A stretch of 64,000 bases of DNA from Jiella pelagia (lineage in GTDB: Bacteria > Pseudomonadota > Alphaproteobacteria > Rhizobiales > Rhizobiaceae): contig NZ_CP114029.1 of assembly GCF_026898155.1 (NCBI RefSeq), positions 1,123,501 through 1,187,500 on the forward strand, given 5' to 3'. A model generated the notes under the pieces. The model searched no databases and was not told where the DNA came from. It saw nothing but the letters and a program-made list of their open reading frames with translations. Below, piece by piece: positions 49,927 through 58,849 of the stretch (its first letter is position 1; every line of letters starts with the position of its first letter). Position numbers and translations under genes: made by a program.

Positions 49927-51939
49927 ATGCCCTTGCCGATCCTGACGCGCGCTGCCCACCTCCTCGCCACGTCATGCATTGCTCTTGGCCTTTCGATACC
50001 AGCAGGCCATGCACAGGATCAGGGAGGTGCCGGAACGGGCCCTGCTCCGGCGGCCACGTCTGCCGAGGGGACCTCCGCCGAGGGGCAACCGGCCGACGGA
50101 TCTGCCGCTGCGACGGCGCAGCCGGCCGCAAACGGTGCGGCCGACCTTTCGTCCGCCGGCGAATGGCAGACTTCGATGTCGCTGACCGAACCGTCCAAGT
50201 ATCCGGCCGATTTCCAGCACTACGACTACGTCAATCCGGATGCCCCGAAGGGCGGGACGCTGAATTCCGTCGCCCTCGGCTCCTATGACAGCTTCAACCC
50301 CTTCGTCGTGCGCGGCACACCAGCGGTCGGCCTCGCCAACTTCGGCGGCGGCCTCCTCTACGACACCTTGATGGAACAATCGACGGACGAGCCGTCGGTC
50401 GCCCATGCGATGATCGCCGAGGCGGTGCGCTTTCCAGAGGACGACTCCTTCGTCACCTTCCGTCTCGATCCGCGCGCCCGCTTCCACGATGGCGAGCCGA
50501 TCACCGTCGAGGACGTGATCTGGAGCTTCGACACGCTGAAGGAGCTTCACCCGCAGTGGGGCGCCTACTACAAGAACGTCGTCAAGGCCGAGAAGACCGG
50601 CGAGCGCGAGGTGACCTTCACCTTCGACCAGACCGGCAATCGCGAATTGCCGCACATCATGGGCGACCTCACGGTCCTGCCGAAGCACTGGTGGGAAGGC
50701 ACCGGCCCGGACGGCAACAAGCGCGACATCTCGCAGCCCTCGCTGGAACCGCCGCTGGGCTCGGCCGCCTACAAGATCGGCCGCTTCGTCACCGGTCAGT
50801 CGATCGAATGGGACCGCGTCGAAGACTATTGGGCCGCAGACGTCCCGACCCACAAGGGCCGCTACAACTACGACAAGATCGACTACACCTATATCCGCGA
50901 CTCCAACGCAGCCTGGGAGGCTTTCAAGAAGGGCGGGCTGAACGATTACCGGCTGGAGAACAGCGCGCGGCGCTGGTCGCAGGAATACAACTTCCCGGCC
51001 TTCGAGAGGGGTGACGTCAAGAAGGTCGCCATTCCGGATCATCAGGTCGAATCGATGCAGGCCTATGTCCTCAACAACCGCCTGCCGAAGTTCCAGGACC
51101 GCCGGCTGCGCGAGGCTCTGACGCTCGCCTACAATTTCGAGGAAATGAACAAGACGCTGTTCTTCGGCCTCTACGCGCGCATGGCGAGCTACTTCGACAA
51201 CAGCGAGCTTGCGGCGACGGGCCTGCCCAGCGAAGGCGAGTTGAAGTTTCTGGAGCCGCTGCGGGACGAGATCCCGCCGGAGGTCTTCACCGAGGAGTTC
51301 CAGCTGCCGGTCTATACCGACAACCGCTCGGTGCGAGACAATCTGCGCAAGGCGCTCGAACTGTTTCGGGAGGCCGGCTACGAACTGGACGGAACCCGCC
51401 TGGTCGATTCGAAGACGGGGCGCCAGCTCTCGATCGAGATGCTCGGCGACGACCCGACCGACGCCAGGGTGCTCCAGCCCTATGCCGACAGCCTGAAGCG
51501 TCTCGGCATCGATGCCTCGATCCGCATCGTCGACACCAACCAGTATATCGAGCGGATCACCAATTTCGACTTCGAGATGGTCTCGATCAAATACTATCCG
51601 CAGTCGCTCTCGCCCGGCAACGAGCAGCGAGACTTCTGGTCGAGCGCCGCCGCCGACTCGCCGGGCAGCCGCAACTATGCCGGCGTCAAGAACCCGGCCA
51701 TCGACAAGCTGATCGACAATATCGTCTATGCCACAGACCGGGACGACCTCGTCGCCGCGACGCGCGCGCTCGATCGGGTGATGCTTTGGGAATACTACGT
51801 TGTTCCGCAATATCGCAACGCGGACATGTGGCTCGCCTATTGGGACAAGCTAGAAATGTCGGGCAAGCGCCCCGGCTATTCGACCATCGATCCGTTCGCA
51901 TGGTGGATCAAGAGCGCCGAGAAGGCCGCGGCGAACTGA
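49927..51939 (+). CDS. yejA: extracellular solute-binding protein family 5 (YejA-like, first copy)
   Basis: 670 residues. A Sec signal peptide (ATSCIALGLSIPAGHAQ) is followed by an Ala/Gly/Pro linker, then the SBP_bac_5 fold: YPADFQHYDYVNPDAPKGG near the start, FRLDPRARFHDGEPITVEDV, YVLNNRLPKFQDRRLREAL. This is the YejA type of peptide-binding protein that feeds the YejBEF transporter. Its stop overlaps the start of the second copy (ATGA). An upstream terminator separates it from the cytochrome gene, so this is the operon start. Confidence 0.92.
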   Translation: MPLPILTRAAHLLATSCIALGLSIPAGHAQDQGGAGTGPAPAATSAEGTSAEGQPADGSAAATAQPAANGAADLSSAGEWQTSMSLTEPSKYPADFQHYDYVNPDAPKGGTLNSVALGSYDSFNPFVVRGTPAVGLANFGGGLLYDTLMEQSTDEPSVAHAMIAEAVRFPEDDSFVTFRLDPRARFHDGEPITVEDVIWSFDTLKELHPQWGAYYKNVVKAEKTGEREVTFTFDQTGNRELPHIMGDLTVLPKHWWEGTGPDGNKRDISQPSLEPPLGSAAYKIGRFVTGQSIEWDRVEDYWAADVPTHKGRYNYDKIDYTYIRDSNAAWEAFKKGGLNDYRLENSARRWSQEYNFPAFERGDVKKVAIPDHQVESMQAYVLNNRLPKFQDRRLREALTLAYNFEEMNKTLFFGLYARMASYFDNSELAATGLPSEGELKFLEPLRDEIPPEVFTEEFQLPVYTDNRSVRDNLRKALELFREAGYELDGTRLVDSKTGRQLSIEMLGDDPTDARVLQPYADSLKRLGIDASIRIVDTNQYIERITNFDFEMVSIKYYPQSLSPGNEQRDFWSSAAADSPGSRNYAGVKNPAIDKLIDNIVYATDRDDLVAATRALDRVMLWEYYVVPQYRNADMWLAYWDKLEMSGKRPGYSTIDPFAWWIKSAEKAAAN

Positions 51940-53816
51940 TGGGCACGACGTTTCGCTTCACCCGACGCGGCTTCGGGCAGATGATGCTCGGCGCCGCAGC
52001 CGCAGCCGCCCTGCCCGGCCGCGGCTTCGCCGCCGCGCAGACGGAGACGCCGCTGCACGGCCTTTCGGCCTTCGGCGACCTGAAATACCCTGCCGACTTC
52101 GCCCAGTTCGATTATGCCACCCCCGATGCACCGGCGGGCGGACAGTTCAACATGTCGGTGCCGAGTTGGGCCCTCAACCAGTCGCCGCTGACCTTCGACA
52201 CGCTCAACACCTTCGTCCTCAAGGGAAACGCGCCCCCGCGGATCGAGAAGCTCTACGATGCGTTGATGACGTCGTCGCTCGACGAACCGGACGCGCTCTA
52301 TTGCGCGCTGGCGAGTTCGGTGACCATCTCGGCGGATCGCAACATCTATGTCTTCGCGCTGCGGCCGGAAGCGACGTTCTCGACCGGCGCCAAGGTGACG
52401 GCCGCAGACGTTGTCTTCAGCTACGAGACGTTCAAGGAAAAGGGCCATCCCTCCCTCCAGATCACGCTCCAGGAGGTCGAGTCGGTGATCGCTGAGGCGC
52501 CGGACCGGGTCCGCCTCGTCTTCTCCGGAAAGCAGACTGACCAGGACGCCCTCGGTGCCTTCGGCATCCCCATCGTGCCGAAGGCCTTCTTCGACGAAGA
52601 GCCCTTCGAGAACGTGACGTCGAAACAGATCCCCGGCAGCGGGCGCTTCGAGGTCAAGGCGTTCGAGTTCGGCCGGTATATCGAATACGGCAAGCGGCAG
52701 GACTATTGGGCGAAGGACATGGCCTTCGCCCGCGGGCTCGACCACTTCGACACCATCCGCATCGATTTTTTCCGAGACAGGACGATCGGCTTCGAGGCCT
52801 TCAAGAAGGGCAACATCACCTTCCGCGAGGAGTTCACCTCGAAGACCTGGGCGACCGACTACGGTTTTCCGGCAGTCCTCGAAGGCAAGGTGATCAAGCG
52901 CGAGTTCCCGCGAGAAAAGACGCCGACCTTCCAGTGCTGGGCGTTGAACCAGCGCCGCGAGCGCTTCGCCGATCGCAACGTGCGCCGCGCCATCAATCTG
53001 TGCTTCGACTTCGAATGGACGAATGCGCAGATGTTCTACGGCATCTACAAGCACTCCGATTCGTGCTTCGAGACATCCGACTTCAAGGCGGAGGGGCCGC
53101 CCTCGCCTGCCGAACTGAAGATCCTCGAGCCGCTCCGCGACAAGCTTCCCGAAGAGGTATTCGGAGAGGTCTGGACGCAACCCGTCTCGGACGGCTCAGG
53201 CCGCGACCGGGCGCTGCTGCGCGAGGCTCTCGGACTGTTTGCCGAAGCAGGCTGGAAGCAGGCTGGCGGCAGGCTGGTCAACGAGGCCGGCCAGACCTTC
53301 GCGCTCGAATACATGATCGACGACCAGGGGTTCGAGCGGGTTTATTCGAAGTTCATCCAGAACCTGAAGGCGGTTGGGGTGGATGCCTCCTTCCGCCTCG
53401 TCGATGGCGCCCAGTACCAGGCGCGCAAGAACCGCTTCGACTTCGATCTCATCGGCGGCGCCTTCTCGCTCGGCTCGACCCCGACGCGGGACACGCTGGT
53501 CGGGTTGTTCGGAAGCCTCACCAAGAACCGGGAAGGCTCCAACAATTTCGTCGGCATGGCCGACCCGGCCGTCGACGCGCTGATCGACGTCGTCAACCAG
53601 GCAAAGGACCGCAAGAGCCTGACGATGGCGATGCGGGCGCTTGACCGGGTGCTGCGCGCCCGCTTCGACTGGATCCCGAACATCCACTCGGAAAGCCACC
53701 GCGTCGCCTATTGGGACATGTTCGGCTTCCGGGAGCCCAAGCCGGACTATGGCTGGCCGGTCGAGCGGCTCTGGTGGTTCGACGAAGACAAAGCGAAAGC
53801 GATCGGCAAGGCCTGA
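51939..53816 (+). CDS. extracellular solute-binding protein family 5 (YejA-like, second copy)
   Basis: 625 residues. The N-terminus TRRGFGQMMLGAAAAAAL is a twin-arginine type signal, in contrast to the Sec signal of the first copy. The fold markers are KYPADFAQFDYATPDAPAGG, FALRPEATFSTGAKVTAADV and CWALNQRRERFADRNVRRAI. The two copies are clearly related but differ along their whole length, so they may bind different peptides. Translation is coupled by the 1-nt ATGA overlap. Confidence 0.92.
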   Translation: MGTTFRFTRRGFGQMMLGAAAAAALPGRGFAAAQTETPLHGLSAFGDLKYPADFAQFDYATPDAPAGGQFNMSVPSWALNQSPLTFDTLNTFVLKGNAPPRIEKLYDALMTSSLDEPDALYCALASSVTISADRNIYVFALRPEATFSTGAKVTAADVVFSYETFKEKGHPSLQITLQEVESVIAEAPDRVRLVFSGKQTDQDALGAFGIPIVPKAFFDEEPFENVTSKQIPGSGRFEVKAFEFGRYIEYGKRQDYWAKDMAFARGLDHFDTIRIDFFRDRTIGFEAFKKGNITFREEFTSKTWATDYGFPAVLEGKVIKREFPREKTPTFQCWALNQRRERFADRNVRRAINLCFDFEWTNAQMFYGIYKHSDSCFETSDFKAEGPPSPAELKILEPLRDKLPEEVFGEVWTQPVSDGSGRDRALLREALGLFAEAGWKQAGGRLVNEAGQTFALEYMIDDQGFERVYSKFIQNLKAVGVDASFRLVDGAQYQARKNRFDFDLIGGAFSLGSTPTRDTLVGLFGSLTKNREGSNNFVGMADPAVDALIDVVNQAKDRKSLTMAMRALDRVLRARFDWIPNIHSESHRVAYWDMFGFREPKPDYGWPVERLWWFDEDKAKAIGKA

Positions 53817-53988: not shown

Positions 53989-55116
53989 ATGGGCGCCTAT
54001 ATCCTTCGCCGACTGCTGCTGATGATTCCGACCATCCTCGGGATCATGGCCATCTCCTTCATCGTCGTGCAATTTGCGCCCGGCGGGCCGGTCGAGCAGG
54101 TTGTGGCCGGCTTGCGTGGCGAGGCGGGCGGTGCGGCCGACCGTGTCTCCGGCGCCAGCTCCGACTTCGGCTCGTCCTCCAGCACCCAGGATTCCGGCTA
54201 TCGCGGCGCCCAGGGGCTCGATCCGGAGTTCATCAAGAAGCTCGAACAGCAGTTCGGCTTCGACAAGCCGCCGCTCGAGCGCTTCGGCCTGATGATCTGG
54301 AACTACGCCCGCTTCGACTTCGGAGAGAGCTATTTCCGCTCGATCGGCGTCTGGGACCTGATCCTTGAAAAGATGCCGGTCTCGATCTCGCTCGGACTGT
54401 GGATCACGCTGATCTCCTACGCGATCTCGATCCCGCTCGGCATCCGCAAGGCGCTGAAGGACGGCTCCAAATTCGACGTCTGGACCTCCGGCATCGTCAT
54501 CGTCGCCTATGCGATCCCCGGCTTCATCTTTGCCGTGCTCCTGATGGTGCTGTTTGCCGGCGGCTCGTTCCTCGACTGGTTTCCGTTGCGCGGCCTCCTG
54601 TCGGACGGCGTCAGCGGCGCCTGGTGCGCGCCGTGGTCGGCGAACTTCGCCCCCGGCGCCTGCATCACCCGGACGATCCCGGACTATTTCTGGCACCTCA
54701 CTCTGCCGCTGATCGCTTTGTCGCTCTCGGCCTTTGCCACGACCACACTATTGACCAAGAACTCCTTCCTGGACGAGATCGGCAAGCAATATGTGACGAC
54801 GGCCCGAGCCAAAGGGCTGAACGAGCGGCGCGTCCTCTACGGCCACGTCTTCCGCAATGCCATGCTGATCATCATCGCGGGCTTTCCCGGCGCCTTCATC
54901 TCGGCCTTCTTCACCGGCTCGCTGCTGATCGAGACGATCTTCTCCCTCGACGGGCTCGGCTATCTCGGCTTCGATTCGATCTACAAGCGCGACTATCCCG
55001 TCGTCTTCGCCACCCTCTACATCTTCTCGCTGATCGGCCTGATCACCACGCTGGTCTCCGACCTCATGTACACCTGGATCGATCCGCGGATCGACTTCGA
55101 GCGGCGGGAGGTCTGA
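53989..55116 (+). CDS. yejB: microcin C/peptide ABC transporter permease YejB
   Basis: 375 residues. The first helix is [20 protein letters not shown], and a periplasmic insert ([18 protein letters not shown]) precedes the BPD_transp_1 core. The cytoplasmic EAA loop is [23 protein letters not shown]-like ([20 protein letters not shown]). It forms the inner-membrane channel with YejE. 172 bp after the binding protein gene. Confidence 0.95.
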
Positions 55117-55118
55117 GC

Positions 55119-56350
55119 ATGGATGACGCCATGAGAGATCGGCTGAAGGAACAGCGCAAAGGCGAACTCCCCGAGGAGCGCGCCGCCGACATCGCCCGGG
55201 AGCAGACGAGCGGCATCGCCCAGCTCGCCCCCGAAGGCGAGCCTCGTCAAGCGCCCCCGCATCTCGCCGATCAACCAGCGCCGCTGGCAGAACTTCAAGG
55301 CGAACAGGCGCGGCTACTGGTCGCTGTGGATCTTCGCCGTCCTCTTCGTCATTGCGCTCTTCGCCGAGTTCGTCGCCAACGACCGGCCGATCCTCGTCGA
55401 ATACAAGGGCGAGTTCTACTATCCGATCCTGGTCGACTATCCGGAAGAGGTGTTCGGCGGCTTCCTGCCAACCACAGACTATCGCGATCCGGTCAATCAG
55501 GAAGAGATCGAGGCGAATGGCTGGATGATCTGGCCGCCGATCCGCTATTCCTACGACACCAAGAATCTCGAACCGCCGACGCCCGCCCCTTCAGCGCCCT
55601 TCTGGACCCTTTCCGACGAAGAGCGATGCGCGGGTTATCCGCAGGGCGTCGATGATCCCGGCTGCGTCATCGGCAACATGAACTGGCTCGGCACCGACGA
55701 CCAGGTGCGCGACGTTCTGGCCCGGGTCATCTACGGTTTCCGCATCTCGGTGCTGTTCGGCCTGATCCTGACCATCGGCTCGGCCCTGATCGGCGTCACC
55801 GCCGGCGCCATCCAGGGCTATTTCGGCGGGCTCGTGGACCTGTTCTTCCAGCGCTTCATCGAGATCTGGTCGTCGATCCCTGTCCTTTATCTTCTCCTGA
55901 TCATTGCCGCGATTCTGCCGCCCGGCTTCTGGGTGCTGCTCGGCATCATGATGCTGTTCTCCTGGGTCGCCTTCGTCGGCGTCGTTCGGGCCGAGTTCCT
56001 GCGCGCCCGAAACTTCGAATATGTGAACGCGGCCCGGGCGCTCGGCGTCGGCGACTGGACGATCATGTTCCGCCACGTCCTTCCCAATGCCATGGTGGCG
56101 ACGCTGACCTTCCTCCCCTTCATCCTGTCGGGCTCGATCACCACCTTGACGGCGCTCGACTTCCTCGGCCTTGGCCTGCCACCCGGCTCGCCGTCGCTCG
56201 GCGAGGCTCCTCGCCCAGGGCAAGAACAACCTGCAGGCCCCCTGGCTCGGCTTTTCCGGCTTCATCGTCCTCGCCCTGATGCTATCCTTGCTCGTCTTCG
56301 TCGGCGAGGCGGTGCGCGACGCCTTCGACCCGCGCAAGAGCTTCAAATGA
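55119..56350 (+). CDS. yejE: microcin C/peptide ABC transporter permease YejE (two one-base frame breaks)
   Basis: Second permease of the Yej system. Repairing GAGCCTC (55239-55245) gives PEGELVKRPRISPINQRRW, and repairing GAGGCTC (56203-56209) gives SLGELLAQGKNNLQAPW; the protein is then 409 residues with no stop. After one N-terminal helix and a periplasmic stretch (GGFLPTTDYRDPVNQEEI, NWLGTDDQVRDVLARVIYG) come the remaining helices and the EAA loop YVNAARALGVGDWTIMFRHV. It starts 2 bp after yejB. Confidence 0.92.
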
Positions 56351-56365
56351 GGCAAGGAGGTTTCG

Positions 56366-56620
56366 ATGGGTGAGATCGGCCGCATCACCAAGACCGTCAG
56401 CGTCGACGAGCTGCCGGAGGAAATGCGGGAGAAATTCGTTCCGGGAACACCCGTGAGCGTTACGTTCGAAGGCCGATTGGCCGATAAACCATTGACCCCC
56501 GAAGAGATCGAGGTGCGCAAACGATCGTTGCTCAAATATTGGGGTGCAGCGGCGCACCTTGGCACGACGAGCGAGGAGGCCGTTGCGCGTATTCGCGCGT
56601 TGCGTGACGAATGGGATTGA
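56366..56620 (+). CDS. putative antitoxin partner of the PIN toxin
   Basis: 84 residues starting MGEIGRITKTVSVDELPEEM, with a GGAGG ribosome site. The N-terminal part could form an AbrB-like or Phd-like short DNA-binding unit, and the C-terminal half is a charged helix (EEIEVRKRSLLKYWG). I do not recognise the family with certainty. Its end overlaps the PIN gene by 10 bp, the classical antitoxin-toxin layout. Confidence 0.7.
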   Translation: MGEIGRITKTVSVDELPEEMREKFVPGTPVSVTFEGRLADKPLTPEEIEVRKRSLLKYWGAAAHLGTTSEEAVARIRALRDEWD

Positions 56621-57045
56621 CACCGGGTCACTTCTATCTCGACACGAACGTCTTTATCGATCTGATCGAGAGGAGGGACGGCGACCTGAAGCGATTCATC
56701 GAGCGGGCGTCGGACGAGCAGGTCAGTTTCTTCACGAGCGAACTCACCTTGGCGGAAGTTCTCGTCAAACCGATCGAACGTGGGCAGACGGAACTGGCGC
56801 GAATGTTCGAGGAGACCGTAGTGACGAGTCCGATCCTGCAGGTGGTGCCGGTTAGTCGCGGCATCCTGCGGCGAAGCGCGATGTTACGTGCCGAGCTGAA
56901 CAACAAGCTGGCCGATTCTATTCATGTGGCAACGGCCGTAGAGGCTGGCTGCCGGTCTTTCGTATCCGACGACAAGAGACTGAGACTTCCGGCGGATATT
57001 GAGCGCGTTACCGCTACTGAATTTGGCGGGATCGACGAGGCATGA
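56611..57045 (+). CDS. PIN-domain ribonuclease toxin (VapC-like)
   Basis: 144 residues. PIN acidic residues are visible in HFYLDTNVFIDLIE, SELTLAEVLVKPIE, LADSIHVATAVEAG and FVSDDKRLRLP, giving the four-acid metal site of a VapC-type RNase. It is encoded directly after the small protein and inside the yej operon, between yejE and yejF. All key residues are present, so it is probably active. Confidence 0.88.
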   Translation: MGLTPGHFYLDTNVFIDLIERRDGDLKRFIERASDEQVSFFTSELTLAEVLVKPIERGQTELARMFEETVVTSPILQVVPVSRGILRRSAMLRAELNNKLADSIHVATAVEAGCRSFVSDDKRLRLPADIERVTATEFGGIDEA

Positions 57046-57190
57046 ACGGCGATCTGCCTGCCCTTGGACTGCGGTCCCTCTCTCCCGATGGCTGAGATCG
57101 CTTAGCGTTTCATTTCACCTCGGCACCTTGCGTGCTGACTTTGGCGCCAAAGCCGGGCCGCGACGAACAACAGAAGAAGGATAGCCGCGC

Positions 57191-58845
<1,655 letters not shown>

Positions 58846-58849
<4 letters not shown>

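Follow-up and report, generated by a model that had tools for sequence, protein, structure and literature searches.

What is a toxin-antitoxin pair doing in the middle of an operon for peptide transport? In the 64,000-nucleotide stretch of Jiella pelagia DNA analysed here (contig NZ_CP114029.1; hereafter the window), two short reading frames lie between yejE and yejF. The original prediction read them as a PIN toxin with its antitoxin, oriented with the yej operon and placed where two genes are normally adjacent. Both reading frames are there, on the same strand as the flanking yejB, yejE and yejF (Table 1), and a search of 61 related genomes for the PIN and antitoxin genes finds the same arrangement in congeners, in other genera and in other families. 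The ATG of the toxin gene overlaps the end of the antitoxin gene by 10 nt (an alternative in-frame TTG at 56617 reduces this to 4 nt), and the antitoxin gene starts 15 nt past the yejE stop.

Table 1. Features of the yej region, in window coordinates.
Feature	Position	Strand	Remark
yejA-type substrate-binding protein	51786..53816	+	upstream part of the operon; named via match to yejA-like reading frames of relatives
yejB, inner-membrane permease	53989..55116	+	
yejE, inner-membrane permease	55119..56350	+	two frameshifts in the assembly
putative antitoxin (class A, 84 aa)	56366..56620	+	between yejE and yejF
putative toxin, PIN domain (VapC-like), 144 aa	56611..57045	+	
toxin-yejF spacer, 145 bp	57046..57190	+	
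yejF, two-domain ABC ATPase	57191..58849	+	

Two properties of the window should be kept in mind. It belongs to an assembly that is 85% complete and in three contigs, and at least four genes besides the twice-frameshifted yejE are split relative to the congener G007. The yejE frameshifts are therefore likely sequencing errors, and the assembly probably carries many indel errors; frameshifts relative to the congener outside yejE (55119-56350) fall at about 13450, 25514, 44750, 49450, 61686 and 62277. Upstream of yejB there are two large tandem reading frames, 49927-51936 and the yejA-like one at 51786-53816. The first matches a 682-aa reading frame at the same position in a congener, and the two are possibly both substrate-binding proteins. 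No Rfam element matches between 51000 and 60000, and no tRNA gene is found in the 64,000 nt of the window.

We begin with the toxin, which is the easier of the two proteins to name. Its 144-aa product scores 63.9 bits for the Pfam PIN family (PF01850; cut-off 23.6 bits, E 2.8e-17), and among solved structures it weakly matches one VapC (7by2, E 0.002). Residues D11, E49, D102 and D121, which we take to be the catalytic acids of PIN nucleases, are invariant across 12 aligned relatives. The gene order is also that of VapBC systems, with a small antitoxin gene first, directly upstream and overlapping or abutting the PIN gene: the gap between the two genes ranges from -19 to +9 nt across 31 class A loci, class A being the type of pair found in the window. 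This 31-locus set requires an intact PIN gene, an antitoxin and enough of YejF; it includes five of six loci that had been selected beforehand and leaves out decayed loci and three in which a cation transporter gene follows the PIN gene.

The antitoxin is a different matter. That the 84-aa reading frame is a gene follows from its conservation in five congeners (69-81% identity) and from purifying selection in 11 pairs of relatives. Its N-terminal half, which carries LPEDLR.G..V.VT.E across the family, is conserved, and its C-terminal tail is EEAVARIRALRDEWD. Against Pfam, the window protein has nothing near the cut-off (best E 0.11), and against NCBIfam and PADLOC it has no match. Searching for a recognised DNA-binding fold (RHH, AbrB, Phd or HTH) in 29 family members yields only scattered weak Pfam matches, the best at E 0.0023 and one to MazE_antitoxin at E 0.0042. 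The predicted fold, which is of low confidence (pLDDT 74, pTM 0.32), resembles no solved fold, and the top profile matches in the PDB are repeats of designed proteins that align to a single helix. Two known partners of PIN toxins were considered by name. The window antitoxin has no match to PSK_trans_fac (PF07704). Passages in one paper (PMC2701414) pair COG2880 proteins, the AF2212-like family (PF01954), with PIN toxins; no class A member reaches the gathering score of that family, one matches it weakly (E 0.05), and a profile comparison of the N-terminal halves gives a probability of 2.4%, so the kinship is unsupported. Since neither Pfam, NCBIfam and PADLOC nor the sequences and folds of the PDB offered a convincing family, class A antitoxins appear to belong to an undescribed one, in agreement with the earlier suspicion that the family was unclear and might be new. 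At one locus (L113), where the toxin is gone, the antitoxin reading frame carries an apparently repeated C-terminal tail.

Now we consider how often the junction between yejE and yejF is occupied, a survey that the original prediction had itself proposed. YejE is found in 106 of 111 genomes sampled from the family and likewise in 106 of 111 sampled from the order. Together these are 209 different genomes with YejE, 22 of which lie outside the junction survey. The junction set comprises 193 loci (180 fetched, 12 from the initial search of related genomes and the window), and yejF follows yejE on the same strand in 187 of them. Six loci (L003, L004, L005, L007, L010 and L025) had come in through searches for the pair or its antitoxin and are excluded from prevalence, which leaves 181 unselected junctions. 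Adjacency is the norm, as had been supposed: 119 of the 181 are empty. In the other 62 the extra DNA exceeds 150 bp, so that what had been described as one insertion is a recurrently occupied site, and the survey across relatives rules out a single chance insertion. Class A pairs or their remnants account for 34 junctions, including one tandem with a second kind of pair that we call class B (a PIN gene with a PSK/RHH-type antitoxin); class B alone fills 17, a cation transporter alone six, a lone PIN gene three and other content two. Occupied junctions are common to 12 family codes.

The class B antitoxin that was tested matches PSK_trans_fac (PF07704) at E 2.2e-18, and the class B PINs form one fully supported group of 17 apart from class A in the PIN tree. 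Because the antitoxins of the two classes are unrelated, at least two kinds of toxin-antitoxin pair occupy the same junction, and in L177 they stand in tandem. The cation-efflux gene is alone and co-oriented with the operon in L032, L034, L036, L178, L183 and L189 (one member tested is PF01545), beside an antitoxin remnant in L033 and beside a PIN gene in L009, L035 and L038. Other junctions of the operon were considered as hot spots and rejected: among 17 genomes (six class A, four class B, seven empty) the yejA-yejB gaps measure 4-235 nt, and in the 13 of them with yejE visible the yejB-yejE inserts are at most 62 nt.

Such an occupancy table raises the possibility that the site is simply permissive, and that the pair is a tolerated, inherited insertion with no functional link to Yej and possibly no active toxin in many hosts. 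The cation-efflux gene at the same junction, without any pair in 6 of 181 cases, invites this reading, as do the decayed toxins described below. There is also precedent. Passages in one paper (PMC7167474) describe relA-mazEF-mazG and dinB-yafNO-yafP in E. coli as pairs that separate two operon genes which are neighbours in strains lacking the pair, report different kinds of pair at one site in relatives, with parDE in the relA-mazG gap of Salmonella, and judge such pairs functionally unlinked to their surroundings. Three results weigh against it: purifying selection on both genes, the failure to find class A antitoxins anywhere else among the candidates scored, and repeated replacement of the cassette, which suggests continuing selection. 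We judge a merely permissive site somewhat unlikely, and note that it overlaps with the explanation that we prefer below, as both claim no service to Yej.

The second of these results depends on how the searches were made. The class A profiles (A2 and A4) were built from yej-linked sequences only, and in the family and order genomes at most 50 first-look candidates were scored per genome, so copies elsewhere could be missed. Among the candidates scored, the antitoxin profile matches 17 of 111 family genomes, in all 17 at yejE, and 21 of 111 order genomes, in 20 at yejE; two genomes (G007 and G132) have additional matches limited to the C-terminal tail. The remaining order genome, G199, carries its class A pair (L307, G199:C1:499279) directly upstream of a yejF that has become separated from yejE. 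Thus there are 36 different matching genomes among the candidates scored, 35 with the antitoxin beside yejE and one beside the displaced yejF. It had been stated in advance that relatives carrying the same pair at unrelated places only would speak against a link to the operon; what we find is the opposite. Nineteen of the 36 genomes are absent from the profile, one of these (G103) being approximately a copy of a profile row, and the search recovers 33 of 34 known junction antitoxins, missing a remnant in G030. Beyond the order, a class-level sample of 289 genomes gives only two weak antitoxin matches besides G000, with 19 candidates scored per genome, where absence is least certain. Carriage as cargo of a mobile element was also considered and rejected: two queries for the class A antitoxin against 72,556 plasmid records found none, the PIN protein matches two distant cyanobacterial plasmids only, and viral contigs give no confirmed match to the pair.

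When named genomes are scanned with the PIN alignment, 64 loci are returned. The 38 of them at the junction belong to Jiella, Aurantimonas, Aureimonas, Fulvimarina, Rhizobium, Peteryoungia, Xanthobacter, Ancylobacter, Chelatococcus, Phreatobacter, Methylopila, Roseibium and others, and each has a match to the class A antitoxin profile at E 5.8e-8 or better. The Jiella and Aurantimonas loci have the same antitoxin sequences as the congeners G002, G003, G004 and G009, a result that by itself places the window in or near Jiella. In L217 and L264 the antitoxin frame is truncated beside an intact PIN frame (an assembly error is possible). The 26 unlinked PIN relatives come from Planctomycetota, Cyanobacteriota, Meiothermus, Nitrospira and others. 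Sixteen have no antitoxin match and ten have weak ones (E 1.5e-8 to 0.0056), mostly to the C-terminal part only; by eye, the N-terminal halves of unlinked antitoxins are RHH, AbrB or AF2212-like. Two unlinked matches (L230 and L258) extend into the N-terminal half, and L230, at E 1.5e-8, is an unlinked pair with a similar-looking N-terminus. A tree was made of 33 PINs linked to yej and 21 unlinked ones. All but one of the linked PINs, 32 in number, group together with support 89, below the starred level; the exception, L170, is placed with the unlinked. Two changes separate linked from unlinked rows on this tree, and class A needs four on the tree that adds class B and lone PINs; a single origin of class A PINs was not retained.

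Class B gives the impression of one branch, bound to this locus, within a widespread family. With 48 candidates scored per genome in the family sample, its best 18 matches, at E 1.7e-28 or better, are all junction loci. The matches that follow start at 8.9e-16, and the 12 of these that were fetched sit away from the junction, with neither yejE nor yejF beside them. More distant relatives of class B are common elsewhere in genomes; among the candidates scored, nothing of the kind was seen for class A.

If the pair has lived at this address for a long time, its sequence should carry a record of it. Across 11 pairs of close cassettes, dN/dS is 0.03-0.23 for the antitoxin and 0.12-0.29 for the PIN gene, which indicates purifying selection on both. 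Over the 31 loci, PIN and antitoxin distances correlate with those of YejF (r 0.55 and 0.63; none of 2000 permutations reaches as high). Quantitative inspection of individual pairs reveals a second signal: the window and L005 differ at synonymous sites by 0.15 in yejF, by 0.71 in the PIN gene and by 0.68 in the antitoxin gene, and against three congeners the flanks of the window are 90-96% identical in DNA and the cassette 51-58%. Such a jump from flank to cassette appears in 7 of 10 chosen pairs and is absent in 3. Fast evolution in place is an unlikely cause in the seven discordant pairs because synonymous sites, too, are near saturation. Taken together, the correlation with YejF and the jumps suggest that long residence and replacement are both at work. 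On a YejF tree (181 rows, selected separately by a YejF longer than 200 aa) class A needs 24 state changes, against 29-36 in shuffles, and class B 10, against 14-17; both classes are clustered, yet there have been many gains or losses.

The decayed loci carry information about the toxin. In six the toxin is broken or gone and the antitoxin remains (L025, L035, L098, L113, L120 and L176), which fits an active toxin. Two others (L033 and L037) hold remnants only, and G011 (L016, L290) has an antitoxin with two stops and a damaged PIN gene. The three lone PIN genes (L147, L163 and L190) keep their acidic residues, have no antitoxin and overlap the yejF start by 4 nt; class A antitoxins were found in none of four lone-PIN genomes searched. 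As far as their sequences can tell, these lone genes would fit poorly with an active toxin and simple addiction, unless another antitoxin serves them.

How, then, is the pair expressed? Where the junction is empty, the stop of yejE and the start of yejF share 4 nt in 83 of 119 cases. The same 4-nt overlap joins the toxin stop to the yejF start at 19 of the 31 class A loci and at 17 of the 18 from class B, so the cassette has assumed the stop-start contact of yejE. The window itself is an exception, and coupling is loose in its genus: in six of seven loci examined, the yejF frame starts 8-146 nt past the toxin stop. The spacer of the window contains a terminator-like hairpin at 57091-57106, one of two such sites in the region where 1.0 is expected by chance. 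On the upstream side, 39 loci have a class A match, the window included, and in 36 of them the antitoxin frame begins no more than 64 nt past the yejE stop. A promoter of the pair's own, autoregulated through an operator, finds little space in so short an interval, and a consensus scan of 56000-57400 shows no sigma-70-like site; a promoter could lie inside yejE. Because there is almost no room for another promoter, expression of the pair should follow the yej operon. The separate promoter that the original prediction named as contrary evidence is not seen by consensus scan and spacing. In A. tumefaciens, passages of one study (PMC9790009) place yejA and yejBEF on one mRNA by RT-PCR. We also considered in-frame toxin deletions as proof of coupling and dropped the argument, because the frames are mixed (L098, L176 and L120 in frame, L025 and L035 out of frame) and the search favours in-frame remnants.

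This geometry suggests a bolder reading, in which the junction is dedicated to PIN nucleases. Toxin-antitoxin families with unrelated antitoxins would have been recruited independently into a stop-start-coupled "hostage operon" with an importer of muropeptides and peptides, so that pair and importer would be made in lock-step, would protect each other from loss and would exchange cassettes like alleles. We offer this tentatively and regard it as fairly unlikely. A related proposal makes the PIN ribonuclease a working part of Yej: it would tune the output of YejF or of the transporter, for instance by cutting operon mRNA or tRNA, with the antitoxin as its regulator, and PINs would have been recruited repeatedly. 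Consistent with it, class A, class B and lone PINs share one junction and one stop-start geometry in spite of unrelated antitoxins, class B PINs form their own starred group apart from class A, some PINs occur without an antitoxin, and in G199 the pair accompanies yejF when yejF moves. The distribution argues the other way, as the 119 empty junctions make the pair patchy and a cation transporter uses the site too; moreover, lone PINs could derive from class A, a joint grouping being unrejected (p-AU 0.81). That Yej is tuned by its resident nuclease is, in our estimate, unlikely.

Could the pair instead protect the transporter? It had been suggested that the pair might stabilise the operon or guard against its loss. 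In one form, the pair would kill or arrest cells that lose yej expression, countering escape mutants selected by Trojan-horse peptides that Yej imports. The expected tie to yej transcription suits such a role. So do passages in two papers, one in which Yej of S. meliloti imports phazolicin and bleomycin and yej insertions appear among resistant clones (PMC10128002), the other in which loss of YejBEF-YepA weakens the cell wall of A. tumefaciens (PMC9790009). The same S. meliloti account adds that yej single mutants remain sensitive to phazolicin, so selection against Yej alone may be weak. In the family and order samples YejE is kept (106 of 111 genomes in each) with or without the pair, and most genomes that have YejE lack the pair, so at the level of species the pair is unnecessary for retention of the operon. 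The suggestions that the pair might sense peptide import, stabilise the operon or guard it find no support here, and the escape-mutant version is improbable. A guard or regulator role is imaginable, as Yej takes up phazolicin and bleomycin in S. meliloti (PMC10128002) and recycles muropeptides in A. tumefaciens, where its loss causes severe cell-wall defects (PMC9790009); yet yej is kept without the pair.

Drawing these lines together, the explanation that we prefer, and consider probable from the sequence comparisons, is that the pair would be a VapBC-type (type II) addiction module that has long occupied the yejE-yejF junction in Hyphomicrobiales and shares the expression of the operon. The comparisons show its genes, its address and near-exclusivity there, its embedding, the purifying selection and that whole cassettes have been replaced between relatives. 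Mechanistically, the pair would be transcribed from the yej promoter, with little room for its own unless inside yejE. By analogy with the family, free PIN protein would cleave RNA and stop growth, and the C-terminal tail of the antitoxin would neutralise it; the module would persist as loss of the antitoxin frees the toxin. In the many copies that are stop-start coupled to yejF, damage to the cassette could also cost the cell YejF. A clean deletion of the pair would then be difficult, and this may explain its persistence at this address. The main route of cassette replacement would be homologous recombination in the conserved yej genes on either side, so that strongly diverged cassettes come to lie between flanks that are almost identical.

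Several observations strain this addiction reading. Lone PINs with their acidic residues seem to be what an active toxin should not allow, and the broken antitoxins of G011, L217 and L264 (the last two maybe assembly errors) would appear equally awkward. In the genus of the window itself the pair is only loosely coupled to yejF, and the cation-efflux gene suggests that the junction may simply be permissive.

Set against known systems, the module departs from VapBC in its antitoxin, which has no convincing described family, in the little room for a promoter in most copies and in its one fixed address. Class B brings a PSK_trans_fac (PF07704, Rv0623-like) pair with a PIN toxin to the same junction with the same 4-nt overlap, and the AF2212-like likeness of class A consists of the partner toxin, the single weak match and the unlinked L230 pair, which matches the class A profile. 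The mazEF pair has its own autoregulated promoter; the yej pair has little room for one, its downstream stop-start overlap is common and its site is in use across 12 family codes. With relA-mazEF-mazG it shares a position between two operon genes and a site at which the kind of pair varies, and it differs in that the class A antitoxin family is confined to the yej site as far as searched. Pairs lodged in operons are, by this comparison, already known from E. coli. In the open-licence literature, to the extent of the text available, no paper was found that joins yej with a toxin-antitoxin module; papers naming yejABEF and toxin-antitoxin treat them separately, and none found with yejE or yejF contains "toxin-antitoxin". 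New, as far as searched, are the order-wide scale, the restriction of an antitoxin family to a single address, the sharing of one mode of coupling by two kinds of pair, and the evidence that cassettes have been replaced.

Natural variants of a single site can thus be compared: two kinds of toxin-antitoxin pair, lone toxins, decayed toxins, empty sites and replaced cassettes. Because the flanks are well conserved and many of the bacteria culturable, the choice of site, the replacement of cassettes and the value of being embedded in an operon are open to experiment. Should the pair affect Yej, the consequences would extend to the recycling of the cell wall and to peptide uptake, since A. tumefaciens imports muropeptides through Yej (PMC9790009) and peptide antibiotics enter S. 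meliloti by this route (PMC10128002).
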